Positions 1,728 through 13,332 of a stretch of DNA of 54,960 bases are shown in pieces. Position 1 is the stretch's first letter. Every line of letters starts with the position of its first letter. Origin of the DNA: Nitrospirales bacterium (GTDB lineage: Bacteria > Nitrospirota > Nitrospiria > Nitrospirales > UBA8639); NCBI GenBank assembly GCA_021604105.1, contig BQIW01000021.1, positions 1-54,960 of the forward strand, read 5' to 3'. Made by a program: the position numbers and the translations under genes. Under the pieces are notes generated by a model that did no database searches, was not told the origin of the DNA, and saw nothing but the letters and a program-made list of their open reading frames with translations.

Positions 1728-4700
1728 ATGGAAGAAGACCCTTTTCCAAAAAGAAGTCCCGTCCTGAGAATGGCAATGTCCTTGTCAAAGGAAAAAGCCC
1801 GGAACTCACTCAATGGAACTTTACTTATCGTCGCCTTAAGTGTGGGCGGGGGTGTTGTCAATACAGGTGTCGCATTTGCCATCCCATGTGAAGAATGGGT
1901 AGCGAAGCTCGTGTCGGTTGAGGGGACGATCGAGGCCCGTTCAGTTGGTGAAGCAAACTGGGTAAAGAGCAGAACGGGAGCGACCTATTGCGTCGGCGAT
2001 ACCGTTCGAGTCCCTCACTGGCGGGCAGCTCTGGTACTCAAGAATGAAACCATCATCCGACTGGATGCAGGCTCCGAAATCACCTTCACTGAATTCAAGG
2101 AAGAGACGCCGTCATGGATCGAGCTTCTCAAAGGCATGGTTCATTTCTTTAGCCGTACCCCCCAGCGCCTGACAATCACCACCCCCTTCGTCAACGGAAC
2201 AATAGAAGGCACCGAATTTCTCATCCGCGTCACTCAAAATGAGGCCCAACTCTTGGTGTTCGAGGGTCGTGTGATATTGGAAAATGCATTCGGCACCTTA
2301 CCGGTTGTCCGTGGCCAATCCGCTGTGACGCACCATGGAGAGGCCCCTCAACGGATGATTGTGGTCCGTCCCCGTGATGCGGTGCAATGGGCCCTCTATT
2401 ATCCCCCCCTATTCGATTATCGCGGGGCACGGCTGGCAGGGCCAGATTCTCCCGCTCTTCGCAAAGCGACACAACGCTATGAGGAGGGAGATGTGCTGGG
2501 AGCCTTGTCTTACCTCGAAAAGGTTCCACCCGCCGGGCGTGATGTCCAGTATTTTACGTTCCGGGCCGGAATGCTTCTCTCCATCGGGCGGGTCGATCAT
2601 GCGCAGGCGGATATTTCCGACGCACTCAACCTGGATGCCGACAATGGGGTGGCCCTTGCCCTGTCGAGCGTAATTGCCCTTGTCAACAATGACAATCAGG
2701 AAGCGCTCCAGCTTGCGCATCGGGCTGTTGAACATGCACCGGATTCCTCAATTCCGCGTATCGCTTTATCCTATGCTCAACAGGGAGCCTTCCAAATCGA
2801 TCAAGCATCGGTGAGTGCCCAAGACGCCACCCGTTTGGCTCCCGAAGACGCCTTGGCCCAGGCCCGGGAGGCTGAAATGTGGCTTGCGCGCGGCTATTCC
2901 GGACAGGCGATAGATGCCGCTCAGTTGGCGGTGGAACGCAATGGCAAACTCAGTCGCCCCCACACGATTCTCGGGTTTGCCCGTCTCACTACCATGGAAA
3001 TTAAAAAAGCCGCCACGGCCTTTCAGCAAGCTATTGCTCTGGATCAGGCTGATCCGCTCCCACGACTGGGGCTAGGGTTAGCCAAAATCAGGCAAAACGA
3101 GCTGGAAGCCGGGCGACGGGAGATTGAGATCGCAACTTCGCTTGATCCCAATAATTCGATTCTGCGCAGCTACTTGGGGAAAAGTTATTTTGAAGAAAAA
3201 CGCGATGGGTTGGACGAAATGCAGTATGAGATGGCCAAGCAGTTGGACCCGCATGATCCGACACCCTGGTTTTATGATGCCATTCGAAAGCAGTTGGTTA
3301 ACAGGCCCATCGACGCGCTCCACGATTATCAAGAATCCCTCCGTCTGAATGACAATCGGGCCGTGGATCGTGGACGACTCTTGTTGGACGAAGATATCGC
3401 AGCTCGTGGGGCCACAGTGGGCCGCATATATAACAATCTGGGTTTTGATCAGCGGGGAAGGGTTGAGGGTTGGTATTCTCTCACCAATGATCCCGCTTCG
3501 CCCATGGCCCATCGCCTCTTGTCGGACGTATATAGCACCCTGCCCGGTTATGGAATCGCCAGGGTGAGTGAATTATTACAGTCACAATTATTGCAGCCGT
3601 TGAATACCAATAACCTTCAACCCCAGTTAGCCTTCAGTAATTTACAAATTATTGAGGCGGGAGGGCCATCGGCGGTCTCCCTCAACGAGTTCAATCCGTT
3701 GTTTATGCGCGACCGCCCGCGACTGCTGGTCAATTCGGTAGTTGGAAACAACGACACGTACGGTGGCAATGTGACGGGGTCGCTTTTGCATGGACCGGTG
3801 TCCGTCAGTGGTGGAGCCTATGGATTCAAAAGCGAACCGGATTTCCGCGATAATTTCGATGTGAAACACACGATTTATAATCTCTTTGGGCAGGCGGAAT
3901 TTCACCCCCGGTTCAACGTCCAAGCCGAATACCGGTACCGGCATACCGAGCAGGGTGATCTAGTCCTCAATTTCGATCCAAAAAACTTTTCTGCCGATGA
4001 AAAGACCACCATTGACCAAACCGTCGTGCGGACGGGGACCCGCTTCACCCTGGGTCCGCATACGGACATCATTGGATCGTATATTTATAGTCGACTGGAG
4101 CAGAACAGCCTTTTTCCCGGCGTTCCGTCCATCGACGTAAACGCCGTGGATAACGCCAATCAGGTCGAAGGGCAGTATCTGTTTCGGGATGGAATCTTCA
4201 ATGCCCAAATCGGCGGGGGCTATACCCATGTCGATACGAACAATGTGTTTAACTTACAGGCTATGGCAATTCCGCTTCCGCCTTTCTGCATCCCTCCCAT
4301 TGCATCTCCTCCCGCCTGCAATTCGAATGTTAAAGATAAATTTACATCCACACAAGCCAACGGCTATGTGTATCTCAATGTCCATTGGCCCCAACAGATT
4401 ATCTGGACAGGAGGGTTTTCGTATGAGTCCATCAATGACCGGTCAAATGAGTACGACCGGCTTCTGCCAAAGGCCGGCATGCAGTGGAATATGACTGACT
4501 GGGCACGGCTGAGGTTGTCCTATGTCCAAACGGTGAAACGGCCGTTAGTGGCCGATCAAACGATTGAACCCACACAGGTCGCCGGATTCAATCAATTTTT
4601 TGACGACGCCAACGGGTCGATCACCGAACAGGAGGGGGTGGCCCTTGATCTTACGCTGACGAAAGATCTGTATGCCGGATTCCAACTGTCCCATCGGGAA

Positions 4701-5210
4701 CTGAAGTGGCCGTCGATTTCCAATCTCGCAACCGTTTTCAATGACCGGCGCGAGGATCGAGCATTGGGCTATGCCTATTGGGCTCCTCACCCCTGGTGGG
4801 CCTTCACGGCAGAGGGATCGTATGAACGGTTCAAACGCTCCGCCTCTGACCCTACAGTGGTGCGTGGAGGACAACCACTGAAGGTGGAGACCGTAACGAT
4901 GCCGCTCAGCGCACGATTTTTCCATCCGTCCGGATTCTTCGCCGGAGTCAAGGGAAATTTTGTCTGGCAAACGGTAGATCTTCCATCGACATCGAACTTC
5001 AACGATGGCCATGACAATTTTTTTCTGGTGGATGCCGATATCGGGTATAGGCTCCCCAAACGGTTCGGAATCCTTAGCCTAGAGGTCCGCAACCTCTTTA
5101 ATACCTCCTTCCATTATCAGGATCTCAATGTCCAAACCCAACGGGAAGCCGTGACGTCGCCTTTTCTACCGACACGCATGGTCGTTGGCAGGTTGACGCT
5201 AAGTTTTTAA
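1728..5210 (+). CDS. FecR domain-TPR-outer membrane beta-barrel fusion protein
   Basis: A 1160-residue envelope protein. The ATG at 1728 gives the longest form; ATGs at 1770 and 1776 fit the signal peptide better (hydrophobic run about residues 30-51, ending VAFA), and no start has a clear ribosome site. Residues about 55-210 are a FecR-type domain: a VEGTIEAR-like first strand, GDTVRV, RLDAGSEI, and an IEGTEFLIRV element typical of FecR sensors. About 245-560 are tandem TPR-like repeats (for example GLAKIRQNELEAGRREIEIA). The remaining 550 residues alternate hydrophobic and polar positions with Gly/Tyr/Asn-rich strands, and the protein ends in an aromatic Phe (GRLTLSF) after an RNLFNTSF motif, as in TonB-dependent receptors. 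No plug domain is visible. FecR normally relays TonB-receptor occupancy to a sigma factor across the inner membrane; here it is fused to the barrel, so its role is unknown. The CHASE2 cyclase downstream may be functionally linked. Confidence 0.8.
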   Translation: MEEDPFPKRSPVLRMAMSLSKEKARNSLNGTLLIVALSVGGGVVNTGVAFAIPCEEWVAKLVSVEGTIEARSVGEANWVKSRTGATYCVGDTVRVPHWRAALVLKNETIIRLDAGSEITFTEFKEETPSWIELLKGMVHFFSRTPQRLTITTPFVNGTIEGTEFLIRVTQNEAQLLVFEGRVILENAFGTLPVVRGQSAVTHHGEAPQRMIVVRPRDAVQWALYYPPLFDYRGARLAGPDSPALRKATQRYEEGDVLGALSYLEKVPPAGRDVQYFTFRAGMLLSIGRVDHAQADISDALNLDADNGVALALSSVIALVNNDNQEALQLAHRAVEHAPDSSIPRIALSYAQQGAFQIDQASVSAQDATRLAPEDALAQAREAEMWLARGYSGQAIDAAQLAVERNGKLSRPHTILGFARLTTMEIKKAATAFQQAIALDQADPLPRLGLGLAKIRQNELEAGRREIEIATSLDPNNSILRSYLGKSYFEEKRDGLDEMQYEMAKQLDPHDPTPWFYDAIRKQLVNRPIDALHDYQESLRLNDNRAVDRGRLLLDEDIAARGATVGRIYNNLGFDQRGRVEGWYSLTNDPASPMAHRLLSDVYSTLPGYGIARVSELLQSQLLQPLNTNNLQPQLAFSNLQIIEAGGPSAVSLNEFNPLFMRDRPRLLVNSVVGNNDTYGGNVTGSLLHGPVSVSGGAYGFKSEPDFRDNFDVKHTIYNLFGQAEFHPRFNVQAEYRYRHTEQGDLVLNFDPKNFSADEKTTIDQTVVRTGTRFTLGPHTDIIGSYIYSRLEQNSLFPGVPSIDVNAVDNANQVEGQYLFRDGIFNAQIGGGYTHVDTNNVFNLQAMAIPLPPFCIPPIASPPACNSNVKDKFTSTQANGYVYLNVHWPQQIIWTGGFSYESINDRSNEYDRLLPKAGMQWNMTDWARLRLSYVQTVKRPLVADQTIEPTQVAGFNQFFDDANGSITEQEGVALDLTLTKDLYAGFQLSHRELKWPSISNLATVFNDRREDRALGYAYWAPHPWWAFTAEGSYERFKRSASDPTVVRGGQPLKVETVTMPLSARFFHPSGFFAGVKGNFVWQTVDLPSTSNFNDGHDNFFLVDADIGYRLPKRFGILSLEVRNLFNTSFHYQDLNVQTQREAVTSPFLPTRMVVGRLTLSF

Positions 5211-5583: not shown

Positions 5584-7884
5584 ATGCATTCCGAAAGTTT
5601 CCAAAAACCCGTTTCGAAATTTAATAATTGGCTGATGGGGTGCCTGCTCATCAGTCTGACAGGCATGGGGATGAATCTCTTCCCTGTCGGATTTAATGTC
5701 GAGGAAGAATTGGGATTACATTGGTTATTTCAAATACGCGGCGTTCGCCCCCCTCCTGAAGACGTGGTCGTCATCGCCACCGATCGGCAATCCGCGTATG
5801 AGCTGGATCTCCCCCAGGAACCCTACAAATGGCCCCGTTCCCTGCATGGAAGGTTAGTCAACCGTTTGACAGAACAAGGGGCCAAGGTCATTGTGTTCGA
5901 CCTGTTTTTCAAAGACGTCCGATCACCGGAAGAGAATGCGACATTTGCCAAAGCGATGCGTGATGCCAACAATGTGATTCTGTTCGAAAAAATAACCACG
6001 ACGAGTCCTCAGGCACATCCTGTTCGAGGTTCGATTCGAACTCCTCCAACGGCTCAATTGGCTCAAGCGGCTTTGGGCTTGGCCTCTCATCCCCTTCCAA
6101 CCAGTTCGCTTCGGGTCAATCAATTCTGGCTTTTTGATCCGAACAATCCCCACCGGGGCACCCTGCCTTTTCTCGCTCTCCAATTGTATTCACTTGATCT
6201 TGTTGAAGAATTGCTGGAACGGCTCCGGGACGTGGTCCCCACTGAGGTGGCCATGCTGCCAAGGGGATACCACGATATTCATGGGCCGGATGGCATTCAA
6301 AATTTGGTCAAAGCCCTGCGCACCATTTTTACCCGTCATCAATCCCTCGGGAACACGCTGCTTGGCAGACTCCCCACCCCGCACTCTGCACAGGAAGCAG
6401 AAAATTCGAGAGTGTTAGCTTCGCTCATCCGGGCTTATAGCGCCGAAGGCAGTCAGTTTATAAACTTTTATGGCCCCCCCAGAACAGTTTCCACCGTTCC
6501 TTATTTTTGTGTGCTAATTCAGTGTTCCTCTCAACGGCTGGGCATGACATCCCCCTTGGACTTCTCCGGAAAGGTGGTCTTTGTGGGGCTATCCGAGACA
6601 GTACAAAGTGAACAGCAAGACCGGTTTCCCACCGTGTTTACATCAAAAGACGGACTTGATCTCAGCGGTGTTGAAATTGCCGCGACAGCATTTGCCAATC
6701 TTCTTGAGAGACAACAGCTGACTCCACTACCGCTGTATCTCCACTTTTTCGTATTGCTGGCATGGGGGGTCCTCGTGGGAACGGCATTTTTTGTGGTGTC
6801 GACCTCACGCCTCCAACACAGAAGTGGCCTACTGATCGCCTCCCTTTCAGGAATTGGGCTGTGGCTTGGTATGGTGTACTTGGCGGTCATCGTGTGGGCT
6901 TTTGTCACACAGGCCCTCTGGTTTCCACTGGTGATTCCCTTGCTGGTTCAACTTCCCCTTGGCCTGGTTGCCGCCCTGTTCGGAACCTATCGTGATGTGA
7001 ACCGGCAACGACTGATCACTGAAAAGGCTTTGGCGAATTATGTGCCTACTCCGGTCATCAAACCGCTCGCACGAAAAATTGAAGAAATCCGTAGCCAGGA
7101 AGAGGCAGTGCACGGTCTCTGCCTCCTTACGGATGCCGAAGGATATACACAAATCTCGGAAGCCTTGGAGGGGAATCCTGACAAATTACAAGCCCTGATG
7201 AATCGATATTTCGAAGCTGTCTGTGCTCCTGTGCGTGAACAAGGGGGTATTGTATCGGACATTACCGGGGATGCCGTGCTGGCTATTTGGCCGGCAGGGA
7301 TACTTACTGCGGAACTGCGCAAGAGGGTTTGTCTGACCGCGCTGAACCTTGTGACCGCAGTGGCTCAATTCAATGAGTCGGAACCTGAATTTTCACTCCC
7401 CACCCGCGTGGGATTAAGTGGCGGGCCAATGTTTACGGGGGAGGTCGGGGCTGGGGAGTATTTTACCTATACACCCTTGGGCGATATCGTCAACACCGCT
7501 TCCCGAATTGAAAACCTCAATAAGCAGCTTGGGACTCGATTGCTGGCTTCTCACCTCGTCGTCGAAGACCTCTCCGGCATTCTCACTCGAAAGGTAGGGA
7601 GTTTTCAATTAATCGGGAAAACGAGGCCGGTGGTGATTTATGAACTCCTCTGTCGGGAAACCGAAGCGGATACTATTTGCCGGGAAGCGATTCAACTTTT
7701 TTCACACGGAGTAGAAAGTTTTCATGCCCGGGGCTGGGACCAGGCGGAAGAATCGTTTCGAACGTGTATTCAACTTCGGGGGAAAGATGGTCCCAGTCAT
7801 TTTTATCTGAGACTGTGCAGACATTATCGAGCCAATCCTCCCTCCCAGGATTGGACCGGAACGATCATCTTGACCACAAAATGA
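5584..7884 (+). CDS. CHASE2-domain class III adenylate cyclase
   Basis: A 766-residue inner-membrane enzyme predicted to make cyclic AMP from ATP. One membrane segment (about residues 16-36) precedes a periplasmic CHASE2 sensor domain (about 38-380, with the typical VVVIATD start and the GAKVIVFDLFF element). Three closely packed membrane segments follow (about 385-485), and then a cytoplasmic class III cyclase domain. The two metal-binding aspartates are D517 (LLTDAEGYT) and D563 (ITGDAVLAIW). The transition-state pair is N637 and R641 (VNTASRIE). D634 in LGDIVN is the residue that selects adenine over guanine. About 65 residues after the catalytic domain are helical and TPR-like (EEALQLFSHG-type pattern). 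The gene follows the FecR-TPR-barrel gene on the same strand. What CHASE2 binds is not known for most family members. Confidence 0.9.
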   Translation: MHSESFQKPVSKFNNWLMGCLLISLTGMGMNLFPVGFNVEEELGLHWLFQIRGVRPPPEDVVVIATDRQSAYELDLPQEPYKWPRSLHGRLVNRLTEQGAKVIVFDLFFKDVRSPEENATFAKAMRDANNVILFEKITTTSPQAHPVRGSIRTPPTAQLAQAALGLASHPLPTSSLRVNQFWLFDPNNPHRGTLPFLALQLYSLDLVEELLERLRDVVPTEVAMLPRGYHDIHGPDGIQNLVKALRTIFTRHQSLGNTLLGRLPTPHSAQEAENSRVLASLIRAYSAEGSQFINFYGPPRTVSTVPYFCVLIQCSSQRLGMTSPLDFSGKVVFVGLSETVQSEQQDRFPTVFTSKDGLDLSGVEIAATAFANLLERQQLTPLPLYLHFFVLLAWGVLVGTAFFVVSTSRLQHRSGLLIASLSGIGLWLGMVYLAVIVWAFVTQALWFPLVIPLLVQLPLGLVAALFGTYRDVNRQRLITEKALANYVPTPVIKPLARKIEEIRSQEEAVHGLCLLTDAEGYTQISEALEGNPDKLQALMNRYFEAVCAPVREQGGIVSDITGDAVLAIWPAGILTAELRKRVCLTALNLVTAVAQFNESEPEFSLPTRVGLSGGPMFTGEVGAGEYFTYTPLGDIVNTASRIENLNKQLGTRLLASHLVVEDLSGILTRKVGSFQLIGKTRPVVIYELLCRETEADTICREAIQLFSHGVESFHARGWDQAEESFRTCIQLRGKDGPSHFYLRLCRHYRANPPSQDWTGTIILTTK

Positions 7885-8573
7885 TCAACCGCGTGAACCC
7901 ATCAAGTTCTTTTACTCCGAACGGTCTCCCACTGTCATGTTTATTCCAATGAATGATCCGCATTCGTTTCAACATGACGCCTGCTCATCTTTTCTATTGG
8001 CACCCGATTGGATTCCATCCCTTTCCATAACTCCTGGCTTAGTCGTGAAGGTCATTGATTGTATGAAAAATATTATTAACAATTGCCTTCGGATGTATCA
8101 AACTTCATCAACTTTGAGTACCATTAACCATTCCTCCTGCTAGATGTCATTATTGTATCTAACCATTCAAGCCATGAGGCAACATAATGGATTCCAGTAT
8201 GGCAGGGGAGACACCAGCCCATTGTCAACACGTTCTAGGAATGCTGGCTCCCTTTTGGCATCAGCAAAAGAAGTGTATTATCTAAAATGTTGACTGATCC
8301 TGCTTGGAGACACCGAATGAACTGAAGGGAGGAAAACAGGACTATTCCCCGGCAGACTTACGTCATGATAGTGAGCACGCCCCGAACAATTGACCCTATA
8401 TCTGCCTCTGTCTAATTCAATATGCCCAATATCAAGGCCAAATTAACCCTTTCTCTTATTGGTGGATTACGATAATATTGTGCGTTCAGAAGAGAGTAAG
8501 AACATTTTTCTTTTCCCTCTGACTAATTGAAAACTTAATCAGGCTACTCACCTAACAACAAAGGAGAAGAGTG
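7885..8573. other. 689-base intergenic region
   Basis: I see no supported gene. The only plus-strand frame of note (7937-8143) has no ribosome site and a composition unlike its neighbours. The final part presumably carries the promoter of the response regulator at 8574, but no clear -35/-10 or -24/-12 pair is visible. A TTGGCAC at 7998 lacks a correctly placed GC, so it is not a sigma-54 promoter. Confidence 0.4.
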
Positions 8574-9005
8574 ATGGCGGAAACAACTGCTGCAATGTTT
8601 GGAGGACACAAAACCAACGGCCTGGTTCTCGTCGTGGACGATGAGCCCGATGTCCGGAAAGTTGTTCGGATGACTCTCGAAAAGTCCGGATATGATGTCA
8701 TCGAGGCGGAGGATGGGGAAAAGGCCATACAGGAAGTGCAGAAAGGCGAAAACCCCTTAATGCTGGACGTCATCATTTCCGATATTCGTATGCCAAAAAT
8801 CAATGGTGTGGAGGCCATTAATTATTTCCAACAGCAATACCCCCGTGTTCCACTCATTGTACTGACAGGATTCCCGGATATGGAAATGGCCACGGGATTT
8901 CTCAAGCAGGGCATTGTGGACTATCTCGTTAAACCGGTTGAAAAAGAAAAACTCATTAAATCTGTGGCCACCGCCATGGAAAAACGAGATCTCAATCGCT
9001 TGTAA
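8574..9005 (+). CDS. Single-domain response regulator (CheY-like receiver)
   Basis: A 143-residue cytosolic receiver domain with no output domain. The acidic pocket is D22/D23, the phosphoacceptor is D70 (IISDIRMP), the switch threonine is T98 (VLTG) and the conserved lysine is K120 (LVKP). The ATG at 8574 is preferred over the GTG at 8571 because AAGGAG at 8561-8566 is then 7 bases away. A strong terminator at 9089 separates it from the two histidine kinases downstream, so it is a separate transcription unit. Proximity suggests it accepts phosphate from one or both. With no DNA-binding domain it would act through protein contact or as a phosphorelay intermediate. Confidence 0.9.
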   Translation: MAETTAAMFGGHKTNGLVLVVDDEPDVRKVVRMTLEKSGYDVIEAEDGEKAIQEVQKGENPLMLDVIISDIRMPKINGVEAINYFQQQYPRVPLIVLTGFPDMEMATGFLKQGIVDYLVKPVEKEKLIKSVATAMEKRDLNRL

Positions 9006-9088: not shown

Positions 9089-9119
9089 AAAGCCCTATCC
9101 TCAGGATAGGGCTTTCTAC
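9089..9119 (+). terminator. Rho-independent terminator after the response regulator
   Basis: A perfect 12-bp inverted repeat (AAAGCCCTATCC at 9089-9100, GGATAGGGCTTT at 9104-9115) with a 3-base loop; the right arm ends in TTT followed by CTACC. This is the strongest terminator in the window and isolates the response regulator from the kinase operon. The flanking A and T runs are symmetrical, so it may work in both directions. Confidence 0.8.
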
Positions 9120-9213: not shown

Positions 9214-10275
9214 ATGTCAACCGTTGAATCTCCGATAACCATTGCCATTCTCGGGGCCGGCAAGGGGGGAACGGCCATGTTGGAATCCTTTCTAAATTTA
9301 CCCCATATCCGTCTCCTGGGTATTGCCGACACAAATCCTCACGCGCTGGGTTTTCAACTTGCCAGACTTCACAATATTCCGACAGTGTCTCACCCACTGA
9401 AGCTTATTCAGGAAGACAAGTTGAATTTGATAATTGACGTGACCGGGGATCCCATTCTTCCTTCATACATTACAGAGCACAAACACAGCGGAGCTGAAGT
9501 GCTTGGAGGGACCGCCGCCAAGGTTCTCTCAGAATTGATCCAGCATCAAACCATTATCCAAACACAACTGTTTCAATCGGAAAAGTTAGCCAGCATGGGA
9601 ACTTTTGCCTCAGGGATCGCCCATGACATTAATAACCCGCTGTATGTCATTTTGGCAATGGCCGAAGAAATTCAGGAGGAAACCAATCTCGATCGCATTC
9701 GACTCCATGCCGCCAGCATCCATGAAGCGGCTCAACGCATTCAAGCCATTTCACGAAATATTACTGATTATGTTCGCACCTCCAGTCATCAGGAACTCGA
9801 AACCATCGACCTCCATGCCAGACTGGATGAAGCCTTAAGCATTTCCCGATTTGCGACAAAATTTCGAGAAATCACCGTTCAGAAACACTACCAAAACGGC
9901 TTATCCGTCCAGGCGAAACCCGAAGAAATGCTCCAGGTATTCATCAATCTTATAACCAACGCCATTCATGCCATGGAAGAAAAAGGCAGCCTCACCATTA
10001 CCACCTCACATAGCAATGGAACGGTTCAGATTGCTATCAGCGATACCGGCTGTGGCATTTCGCCGGAACACCTCCCAAATATTTTCAATCCATTCTTTTC
10101 AACTAAACCTAAAGGCCAGGGGACGGGCCTCGGTCTCTATAACGTCAAAACAATTGTCAAAAAATATCATGGGGATCTTCAGGTCGAAAGTGAACAGGGG
10201 AAAGGCACCACGTTCCGACTGTCCTTTCCCACCTTTCCTCCTGCAGAAGATAAGGTGTCCGGTGGACAAATCTGA
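9214..10275 (+). CDS. Soluble histidine kinase with N-terminal NAD-type Rossmann domain
   Basis: A 353-residue protein with no membrane segment. The ATG at 9214 is set by AGGAGGGA at 9202-9209; an in-frame start at 9130 has no ribosome site. Residues about 8-110 look like an oxidoreductase-type nucleotide fold. They contain the glycine motif G14-A-G16-K-G-G19, and an acidic residue, D39, at the end of the second strand (LLGIADTNP), which usually favours NAD(H) over NADP(H). A VDVTGD-like strand follows. A short helix (about 115-130) joins it to a HisKA domain with the phosphoacceptor near residue 136 ([10 protein letters not shown]). Then comes an HATPase_c domain with N box ([10 protein letters not shown]), G1 (DTGCGI) and G2 (GTGLGLY). 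The catalytic part of a dehydrogenase is absent, so the first domain is probably a sensor of a dinucleotide or similar ligand (inference). The next gene overlaps its 3' end by 14 bases. Confidence 0.88.
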
Positions 10276-12733
10276 ACCTAAACCTGCCAAACGAAAAAAA
10301 GGACTGACCAAAAAACTGGTTCTGTCCATGCTGTTGGTCGGTGCCCTCCCCTTGATCATTGGACTCCTGTTGGCTTTCTACCAGGGCACACAGGAAATTC
10401 GGGAGGTCAATGGTTCCAGCTTTGAAGCTCTCGCAACAGAAACGGCCAGAAAGCTTGATCTAGTCATGGCAGATGAACTTGCTCGAACGGCCTTACTGAC
10501 AACCGATATCAAGATCATTGCAAAACTGGAACACACCCGCGACGCCCTCAGTGAGTTGACTCCACAGGAACTGGCTCTCACTCTACAATACGAACAAGAA
10601 GCCTGGAACGCCAAGGATCCCGACATCCTTCAAAGAATTCTGAAAGGACCCTTTGCCGAGATTCTACAACAACATGTGGGGGGAACCTTTATTGACCCGG
10701 GCCATCCCATTCCGGTGATTACCCGATCTGCTACACGTGGCTTATTTATTACCGATCATGCAGGACGGGTCGTGGCCAGCCTGGACTCCGACATTCCCTA
10801 CCTTCACCGGGAGGAAGTGTGGTGGAAAGGAGCATTCCACAATGGCGTCGGTCAACCGTATATAGGCGAGATAGCGTTTGATTCACTACGGGGAGTCTAT
10901 ACGTTTACTCTCGCGCTACCAATCATGGATAGCTTGCGGTATGAAGCCATCGGCGTCCTGCATCGGATTTATGACGCCAAGGAATTCTTTGCCCCCTCCA
11001 TCGACATTATTCGATTTGGCAAAACCGGTCATGTCATGCTCATTGACAGCCGTGGCGTCGTCCTGAGCTGCCCGATCCTTCCGACCGGGACCTCAATTAG
11101 TGACACCCGCCTTATTCCCCTCGTCACACCCCTGCATGCCGGATGGACTCCAGCCCCAAGCGATGGGCATGGGGGCACTGCAGCCTCCATCATTGGATTC
11201 GCTCCCTTGAGCAATACCAATCAGATTACCCAATCCTCTACCGGCCAGACCTGGCATATGTTTGTCTGGCAGTCATCTGGGGAGGTCTTTGCCCCCATAG
11301 AGCACTTTTTTAAATGGACGGCAGCTTTTGGATTACTCGGAGTGGCGCTGCTCGTCACATTGGGATATATCGCAGCCAATCGGATTGCCGCACCCATTCG
11401 TCGTCTTCAGGAAGCTGCCCGGCAAATCGGCAGAGGAGAATATCGCGAGCCCATTATCTTGTCCACTGGAGACGAGATTGAGGAATTGGCCGATGAGGTC
11501 AATCGCATGAACCAACAACTGGCTTCACAGTTCGCCGGACTGGAAAGCCAAGTTGAGTTGAAAACCCAGGAAGTGAAATACCTTGAGGAGTCCACTATAA
11601 AAATTCTGGATAATGTGCCTGACCCGGTCCTCATGATTGGTCCGGACGAACACATCGAATATTTGAATAAGGCCTCGAAAGAAGCCTTCGCCGCCACGAA
11701 CGGCGAGATCATCGGCACCCCACTGTTTCAAATTTTCTCCTTGGACCCTGCGACACAAGACCGCCTTAAACAAGAAATGCATGCGGTCCAGGTTATGGAA
11801 CCTCTATCTTCAGACAATACGAAGACCGATCCATCCAAAACCTCGCTACAAGATCCTCTGATTCCCACGAATTGGGCCCACTCAGGCACTAATCGCCAGG
11901 AAATTCGGATTAATCAGCGAACGTTCCGGTACCGTTGGTTTGGTGTTCAGTCCCGACCAGGAAGGGGGCCAAGTGCCGGATTGGTATTACGAGATACGAC
12001 GGAGGAAAGTATCCTACAGGACCGGGTCATCCAAGGGGAAAAACTTGCAAGTTTGGGCGTTCTCAGTGCCGGAATTGGGCATGAGCTCAATAACCCTTTA
12101 GTCGGAGTCATTGGATTAGGTGAAGCGATACAAGAGGAGACCAACCCTGAGCAAATCAAAGAATATGCCAGGGGCATCGTCCAACATGGAAAACGTATGG
12201 CTTCCGTCGTCCGAGACTTTACCGGTCAATCCGGAGAAAAATTGACTGAAGGCCAAACGCTCATTAACCTCAATGAACTGTTAGAGCAATCTCTGGCTAC
12301 CGTTAAGGAACTCTTCCCATCAGTCTCGGTAGAAATCCAGACTCACCTGGGGCCCATTCCGCTCATTCAGGGAAAAGCTTTGGAACTCGGGCAGGTCTTT
12401 ACCAACATCATCACCAATGCGTTTCAAGCAATGAAAGAAGGTGGGAAGCTTGATATTTCAACGGAAACGTCGGGACATGATTTGGAAATCCGCATTAACG
12501 ACACGGGGCCCGGCATCGCCCCAACACATCTGCCTAGAGTCTTTGATCCATTTTTTACAACTAGGGGGCAGGGAGAAGGATCTGGCCTGGGACTCACCGT
12601 GGCCTATCGAATTATCAATAAATTAGGTGGACATATTCGAATGGAAAGTGAAGAGAGCCAGGGGACGACCTGCTTGATTACCTTACCCGTCTCGAATATC
12701 CACCTGGCCAAGGAAAGGAGTTCAACATCATGA
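10262..12733 (+). CDS. Membrane sensor histidine kinase, Cache-HAMP-PAS-HisKA-HATPase
   Basis: An 823-residue inner-membrane kinase. The GTG start at 10262 lies inside the end of the preceding kinase gene, with AAGGTG just upstream; other in-frame starts lie deep in that gene or inside the membrane segment. A membrane segment (about residues 19-41) is followed by a large periplasmic Cache-type domain (about 45-345). A second membrane segment (about 350-372), HAMP (about 373-425), coiled coil and PAS (about 437-560) come next. The HisKA phosphoacceptor is near residue 604 (GIGHELNNP), and the HATPase_c domain has N box (ITNAFQAMKE), G1 (DTGPGI) and GSGLGL G2. There is no receiver domain. It is co-transcribed with the Rossmann kinase before it and the haem protein after it (ATGA overlap), so an extracytoplasmic redox or small-molecule signal is plausible. 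Confidence 0.9.
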   Translation: MDKSEPKPAKRKKGLTKKLVLSMLLVGALPLIIGLLLAFYQGTQEIREVNGSSFEALATETARKLDLVMADELARTALLTTDIKIIAKLEHTRDALSELTPQELALTLQYEQEAWNAKDPDILQRILKGPFAEILQQHVGGTFIDPGHPIPVITRSATRGLFITDHAGRVVASLDSDIPYLHREEVWWKGAFHNGVGQPYIGEIAFDSLRGVYTFTLALPIMDSLRYEAIGVLHRIYDAKEFFAPSIDIIRFGKTGHVMLIDSRGVVLSCPILPTGTSISDTRLIPLVTPLHAGWTPAPSDGHGGTAASIIGFAPLSNTNQITQSSTGQTWHMFVWQSSGEVFAPIEHFFKWTAAFGLLGVALLVTLGYIAANRIAAPIRRLQEAARQIGRGEYREPIILSTGDEIEELADEVNRMNQQLASQFAGLESQVELKTQEVKYLEESTIKILDNVPDPVLMIGPDEHIEYLNKASKEAFAATNGEIIGTPLFQIFSLDPATQDRLKQEMHAVQVMEPLSSDNTKTDPSKTSLQDPLIPTNWAHSGTNRQEIRINQRTFRYRWFGVQSRPGRGPSAGLVLRDTTEESILQDRVIQGEKLASLGVLSAGIGHELNNPLVGVIGLGEAIQEETNPEQIKEYARGIVQHGKRMASVVRDFTGQSGEKLTEGQTLINLNELLEQSLATVKELFPSVSVEIQTHLGPIPLIQGKALELGQVFTNIITNAFQAMKEGGKLDISTETSGHDLEIRINDTGPGIAPTHLPRVFDPFFTTRGQGEGSGLGLTVAYRIINKLGGHIRMESEESQGTTCLITLPVSNIHLAKERSSTS

Positions 12734-13332
12734 CAAACGTACGAAAGAGCAGGAACGGCTTGTCTATGGCATTTCTGGCCATTCTCTTCATTGGAATAGG
12801 CTTTTCTTCATCTCTTCAAGCAAGTGATTCCAACGCCATGAAAAATCTATCCCCGGAGAAAGTGGCAGACTTCATTCATTCCATCGTTGAGGCGGACCGG
12901 CACGTCTACACGACCCATATCGTAAAGAGAATGCAGGACCAAGGCGTCGTGGTGGCACGAGAAGATTGGGAAAACAAAAACGCCATTCCCCTTCCAGCAC
13001 AGTTTCTCCATATTTCCAGCAAATTGGTTGCGGAATCAGGACACGGCATTCGATTCCGTTTAATTAGTCTGTGGCCAATATATCGAAGAAATGGACCTGC
13101 AACGGACTTCGAACGAAAAGCCCTGGAACAACTTTCGCTCAACTCAGATACGCCTCGACGTGGAATTGTTTCCACGGGGAAAAAACGCTTATTTCAGGCC
13201 ATTTATGCTGACAAAGCGATAAACGATACCTGTACGACATGCCATAATGCTCACCCCTTAAGCCCCAAGCGTGACTTCAGAAAAGGCGACGTCATGGGGG
13301 CCATTGTCATCACCATTCCCCTGGAGGACTAA
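12730..13332 (+). CDS. Periplasmic c-type haem sensor protein, Tll0287-like (DUF3365)
   Basis: A 200-residue protein whose ATG overlaps the kinase stop codon (ATGA). It has a signal peptide (basic start, hydrophobic core about residues 13-28, cleavage after LQA near 32). A single CxxCH haem-attachment motif lies at C168-T-T-C171-H172. The PIYRRNGPATDFERKAL and VMGAIVITIPL elements match the Tll0287-like / DUF3365 fold as I know it. In other bacteria this domain is usually the built-in sensor part of kinases, cyclases or diguanylate cyclases. Here it is free-standing and directly follows a Cache kinase. The likely reading is a periplasmic redox, oxygen or NO sensor subunit acting on that kinase; this partnership is inferred from gene order only. 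Confidence 0.85.
   Translation: MTNVRKSRNGLSMAFLAILFIGIGFSSSLQASDSNAMKNLSPEKVADFIHSIVEADRHVYTTHIVKRMQDQGVVVAREDWENKNAIPLPAQFLHISSKLVAESGHGIRFRLISLWPIYRRNGPATDFERKALEQLSLNSDTPRRGIVSTGKKRLFQAIYADKAINDTCTTCHNAHPLSPKRDFRKGDVMGAIVITIPLED

Follow-up and report, generated by a model that had tools for sequence, protein, structure and literature searches.

The 54,960-nucleotide stretch of DNA analysed here (the window) encodes, at positions 9214-10275, a soluble histidine kinase that opens with a Rossmann domain of NAD-binding type. The evidence as a whole is best explained by a kinase that senses the cytosolic NADH/NAD+ redox state through a Rex-like Rossmann input domain, a reading to which a probability of about 0.6 is assigned. 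The same module recurs ahead of many other outputs, and the most economical account of it, and the best reading at present, is that of a Rex-like dinucleotide sensor turned into a portable module that provides input to two-component and other signalling.

The kinase and its architecture

The kinase and the two parts of it that are discussed below are as follows.

9214..10275, + strand: soluble Rossmann-HisKA-HATPase histidine kinase, 353 aa (ORF; Pfam HisKA and HATPase_c)
9232..9570, + strand: Rossmann input domain, residues 7-119 (AlphaFold2; Foldseek/VIA; family conservation)
9508..9591, + strand: residues 99-126, last Rossmann helix, heading for the DHp helix at residues 132-155 (AlphaFold2 of the whole kinase; indicative)

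The reading frame starts with an ATG preceded by AGGAGG. Pfam places HisKA at residues 128-188 and HATPase_c at residues 236-339, an overlapping GHKL model being the sole other match above cut-off, and the protein carries the phospho-His and the HATPase N, G1, F and G2 boxes of a HisKA-type histidine kinase. These kinase motifs (H137, N249, D277-x-G279-x-G281 and G303-T-G-L-G307) are invariant across 15 orthologues. A membrane segment is absent, since the peak 19-residue hydropathy is 1.05, and neither PAS nor GAF is found in the protein by Pfam. From about residue 119 onward the chain passes into the kinase according to both Pfam and AlphaFold2, leaving no catalytic dehydrogenase part. An earlier note on this DNA had likewise described a kinase with no membrane segment, no PAS or GAF and no catalytic dehydrogenase part, and the agreement of the ORF, Pfam and AlphaFold2 bears out its description of a soluble HisKA/HATPase kinase with an N-terminal Rossmann domain.

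Purifying selection is stronger on the Rossmann domain than on the kinase part: measured against the sister species, dN/dS is 0.044 for residues 1-115 and rises to 0.078 for residues 116-340. An AlphaFold2 model of the whole kinase (pLDDT 73.5) retains the Rossmann part, and in this model residues 99-126 likely form a signal-transfer helix, an assignment that is indicative only. Because the linker has a pLDDT under 50, this helix coupling is tentative.

Fold and conserved motifs of the Rossmann domain

Modelled alone from a 51-row alignment, the domain is predicted by AlphaFold2 with a pLDDT of 92.7 and a pTM of 0.85, its strands and helices alternating as in the Rossmann fold. The top PDB matches of the model in Foldseek are acetaldehyde dehydrogenase, homoserine dehydrogenase and Gfo/Idh/MocA enzymes, and VIA-align superposes it on GenD2 with NAD (Z 12.4, rmsd 2.7, 100 aligned) and on a Rex repressor (Z 10.6, rmsd 2.4, 92 aligned). 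The Rossmann fold proposed earlier for residues 1-115 is thus upheld, no other fold having appeared, with the correction that the end of the domain lies near residue 119 and that the final helix points toward the kinase.

The domain of the window protein taken alone gives sub-threshold Pfam and NCBIfam matches, to acetaldehyde dehydrogenase (9e-4), GFO_IDH_MocA (E 0.03) and DapB_N (0.07), and homologues were therefore gathered. Among PDB sequences, a profile of the 51-sequence family clearly hits acetaldehyde dehydrogenase (9e-7) and Rex (1.6e-4), and the Pfam matches among the 51 members are to GFO_IDH_MocA (46), DapB_N (42) and, weakly, CoA_binding (17).

Conservation was read from an alignment of 61 Rossmann domains, from 60 loci and the window. 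In the window protein the motifs of the domain are GxGxxG (14-19), D39, DVTGDP (75-80) and GGTAAK (98-103). The complete glycine motif G14-A15-G16-K17-G18-G19 and the acidic D39 after the second strand lie where the earlier note had put them; the three glycines are kept in 58-60 of the 61 domains, so that the motif is not lost in homologues, and the position of D39 is Asp or Glu in 60 of 61, which argues for NAD over NADP. The domain therefore has the features of NAD(P)-binding Rossmann folds, namely a beta-alpha fold with GxGxxG after strand 1 and an acidic end of strand 2. The signature of the family across the alignment is D-x-N/D-P-x-A-P-G ... D-V-T-G-D/N ... G-x-x-A-K/R-x-x-W, in which the near-invariant Trp of the last helix is replaced by Ser (Ser106) in the window protein and its sister species.

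A chance match to the glycine motif is ruled out by the predicted fold and the conservation of the family. Likewise, a truncated dehydrogenase joined to the kinase through assembly error is ruled out by 14 syntenic orthologues and by a paralogue in the same genome on a NarL-type kinase.

Catalytically dead Rossmann domains serve as scaffolds in some proteins. Accordingly, the module could be a relic fold that serves dimerisation or protein contacts and holds no small-molecule ligand, a view to which the missing Trp of the window protein lends something. It is nonetheless improbable, as GxGxxG and D/E39 are among the best-conserved parts of the module across phyla and outputs, the domain evolves under a lower dN/dS than the kinase core, and even the copies inserted into receivers (described below) retain the ligand-contact motif. 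Homology to the N-domains of catalytic dehydrogenases also raises the prospect that the module itself works as an oxidoreductase, or contacts one that does, and that the kinase senses substrate turnover. This is very improbable, given that the domain stops at about residue 119, where the kinase follows in place of a C-terminal catalytic domain, and that the 61-domain alignment holds no invariant, potentially catalytic Cys or His.

Rossmann folds with GxGxxG in other families also bind FAD, SAM, CoA or nucleotides, and the acetaldehyde dehydrogenase (acylating) family, the nearest relative of the module in sequence, handles both NAD and CoA. The module might then bind another adenine-bearing ligand (CoA/acyl-CoA, ADP-ribose, NADP(H) or an adenine nucleotide) and report the carbon or energy state in place of NADH/NAD+, with CoA above all a possible choice in view of the weak CoA_binding matches in 17 of 51 members. 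Such a ligand is unlikely, if less so than either of the two alternatives above: the near-universal acidic residue favours NAD over NADP, the CoA_binding matches are outnumbered by those to GFO_IDH_MocA and DapB_N, and the neighbouring genes of the family encode NADH-linked enzymes (mdh, nuoE/F) and not acyl-CoA enzymes.

Relation to known families

No curated Pfam or NCBIfam family covers residues 1-119 of the window protein above cut-off. Some other members reach the cut-offs of GFO_IDH_MocA, DapB_N or NAD_binding_3, and databases therefore probably list them under oxidoreductase labels. The NAD-binding domain of acylating acetaldehyde dehydrogenase is the best relative of the module by sequence and by Foldseek, but the module lacks the catalytic/dimerisation domain and ends its strand 2 with a conserved acidic residue. 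Membership of that family is rejected for the window kinase, as TIGR03215 scores 15.5 bits against a cut-off of 282 and matches the N-terminal ~90 positions alone. The Gfo/Idh/MocA (PF01408) and DapB N-domain (PF01113) families share the same N-terminal Rossmann arrangement, and in this comparison L137 (36.5 bits) and L034 (33.5 bits) stand above the Pfam cut-off. The module differs in having no C-terminal alpha/beta substrate domain; at 15.3 bits against a cut-off of 24 the window kinase falls outside Gfo/Idh/MocA.

Functionally, the closest parallel is Rex, in which a Rossmann NAD(H) module likewise acts as a non-catalytic cytosolic redox sensor and to which the module is related by profile and by fold. 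Rex is a DNA-binding repressor that begins with a winged helix and ends in a domain-swapped helix, whereas the window-type module is N-terminal and lies ahead of kinase, AAA+, GGDEF or receiver outputs. The window kinase, with its N-terminal Rossmann domain and no winged helix, is thus not a Rex protein. NifL, DosS/DosT and other PAS/GAF cofactor-binding redox proteins also couple a cytosolic redox input to a kinase-type output, but use FAD-PAS or heme-GAF and no dinucleotide Rossmann domain (PMC8063818).

The Rossmann fold as an NAD-type sensor is known; what appears to be new is its joining to the outputs described here. Rex and a small number of other proteins account for most of what is known of how cells read their NADH/NAD+ state. 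A search of the literature returned no description that names a Rossmann or NAD-binding kinase and no histidine kinase that reads NADH/NAD+ through a Rossmann domain, which is weak evidence, most subscription journals being outside its scope. If the reading is true, it would provide a candidate sensor of NADH for groups largely without Rex, such as the Nitrospirota, and a transplanted copy of the module could serve as a genetically encoded sensor of NADH.

Spread of the module and its outputs

The earlier note had described a single kinase. Other kinases with its domain order exist, but the module also sits on many outputs that are not kinases, and the 61 domains with conserved GxGxxG and D/E39 carry at least seven kinds of output. 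Behind the module are found HisKA and HisKA_3 (NarL-type) kinases, sigma-54 AAA+ Fis activators, GGDEF-EAL, GAF-GGDEF and GAF-PAS-kinase proteins, and giant kinase-receiver-GGDEF hybrids; the absence of PAS and GAF, true of the window protein, accordingly does not extend to the family. In L157 the module sits behind a LuxR-type HTH. Stand-alone copies of ~131 aa have another C-terminal tail (L084, L085, L086, L241, L242), and tandem pairs stand at the N-terminus of PAS-kinases in Deltaproteobacteria-type genomes (L201, L202, L214, L240).

The module is present in 93 of 198 genomes of the Nitrospirota sample, in 8 of 199 of the sample around L137 and in 52 of 148 of that around L157. Beyond the Nitrospirota it occurs in records labelled Rokubacteria, Calditrichaeota, Planctomycetota/Brocadiaceae, Nitrospinota and Deltaproteobacteria. 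The genome of the window itself holds a second copy, on a 379-aa protein in which the same domain is joined to a NarL-type kinase.

L002:763-1902 (contig C79): second copy in the same genome, preceded by glyA and nrdR and followed by a LuxR-type regulator

A LuxR-type regulator adjoins this type of copy in most relatives, and glyA/nrdR in some.

Association with genes for NADH enzymes

Independent support for NAD(H) as the ligand may be drawn from the genes that surround other members of the family; the window operon itself has no such context. In Manganitrophales/Troglogloeales-type genomes, malate dehydrogenase (mdh) precedes the sigma-54 versions in all 14 loci (L092-L105), and a NuoF-type flavoprotein (nuoF) lies downstream of the activator in 11 of the 14, one of the other three being cut by the contig end. 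Activator and nuoF have a small zinc-ribbon-like ORF between them in L096 at least. A strict sigma-54 promoter, TGGCAY-N5-TTGC (-24/-12), lies between activator and nuoF in 10 of these loci.

L092:5311-5790, and equivalent gaps in L093-L105: conserved sigma-54 promoter region between the Rossmann-AAA+ activator and nuoF

Across 19 loci strict sites number 11, where shuffled sequence would give 0.65, and none was found near the Rokubacteria and Calditrichaeota activators. The Brocadiales kinase versions directly follow nuoF/hndC in all seven loci, with a gap to nuoF as small as about 10 bp, and nuoE is visible farther upstream in six. Among Deltaproteobacteria-type members, L211 lies behind a nuoM-nuoM-nuoN run and L238 near nuoN/nuoM and hdrBC, with hdrA near three members; the Nuo and Hdr names of these neighbours come from sequence reading and BLAST among the loci, while mdh, NuoF and HndC are confirmed by Pfam.

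Two of these associations are strong and hold across a lineage, the others are a few single cases, and the loci are not independent; the mdh/nuoF synteny of the Manganitrophales-type genomes is one inherited block and not 14 independent events. No recurrent NAD-linked enzymes were found around the NarL-type and hybrid members. The nuo genes are known targets of Rex (PMC8063818), and they are probably targets of the sigma-54 members of the module as well, which renders the NADH-sensor idea directly testable. Of 196 genomes sampled from the phylum, 3 were found to have Rex, set against the 93 of 198 that hold the module, and the Rex N-domain (PF06971) was not found in the window's own genome. 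With the same fold on many bacterial switches, some of them beside NADH-dehydrogenase genes, the module is therefore probably a widespread sensor of the NADH/NAD+ state.

The window operon and a proposed sensing mechanism

The kinase lies among the following partner genes and sites.

8571..9005, + strand: REC-only response regulator, 144 aa, likely partner (Pfam Response_reg; adjoins the kinase upstream in 14 of 14 further loci)
9089..9115, + strand: perfect 12-bp inverted repeat with a 3-nt loop between regulator and kinase (read from sequence)
10262..12733, + strand: dCache_1-HAMP-PAS-HisKA-HATPase membrane kinase (Pfam; sequence; next gene in 14 of 14 further loci)
12730..13332, + strand: Tll0287-like/DUF3365 heme-c Cache protein, probably secreted, CTTCH (PF11845, 2e-17; CxxCH; 13 of 14 loci)

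This gene order, from regulator through the Rossmann kinase and the dCache/HAMP/PAS kinase to the Tll0287 protein, is kept in the 14 further loci, in 13 of which the heme protein itself is detected, at Rossmann kinase identities of 46-93%. The genes overlap: a possible GTG start of the dCache kinase at 10262 overlaps the stop of the Rossmann kinase by 14 nt, and the heme protein gene overlaps that of the dCache kinase by 4 nt. A recent description of the Tll0287/DUF3365 family, to which the fourth gene belongs by PF11845 and its CTTCH motif, presents its members as heme-c Cache domains that show redox or NO behaviour (PMC12889525). The window protein is separate from the Rossmann kinase and probably a parallel, periplasmic input.

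The regulator is tied to the module by a rearrangement in at least three genomes of a sister genus. There a receiver is interrupted after its conserved LTG, between strand 4 and helix 4, by the Rossmann module together with the opening residues of the kinase linker.

L033:5845-6669; L034:5524-6378; L035:6145-6939: receiver with inserted Rossmann module

The two receiver halves match the window regulator at residues 6-116 and 105-144, the inserted copies keep GxGxxG and D/E39, and the window-type kinase was not found in these genomes. The insertion thus links the module to the regulator and suggests that the REC-only protein at 8571-9005 is the partner of the Rossmann kinase.

A mechanism may be proposed on these grounds. 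The Rossmann module, kin to the NAD-binding half of dehydrogenases and devoid of their catalytic domain, would use GAGKGG and D39 to bind NAD(H). Whether NADH or NAD+ is bound would affect the loop that follows strand 5 together with the last helix (99-126); this helix would run towards the DHp helix, and the change would thereby set the autophosphorylation of H137. The direction of this response, that is, which redox form activates the kinase, is a matter of inference. Phosphate would then pass to the REC-only regulator encoded upstream. The neighbouring membrane dCache kinase probably also feeds this regulator, with the heme-c Cache protein as a putative periplasmic partner, and the cell would in this way merge a cytosolic reading of NADH with a periplasmic reading of redox state or NO. 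More broadly, the chances are roughly even that the module represents a family of Rex-like Rossmann domains, spread over several phyla and as yet without a name, which would sense NAD(H), supply cytosolic input of a generic kind to two-component kinases, sigma-54 activators, c-di-GMP enzymes and even receivers, substitute for Rex in the Nitrospirota and, in the Nitrospirales, be wired with a periplasmic heme-c Cache protein in one redox-integrating two-component operon.

The inverted repeat at 9089-9115 resembles a terminator or attenuator, yet has no clear T run; it is possibly a partial terminator that separates the levels of regulator and kinase. Upstream of the operon, the window encodes a CHASE2-type adenylate/guanylate cyclase (5584-7884) and a 1160-aa ORF (1728-5210) that combines FecR, TPR and outer-membrane barrel matches.
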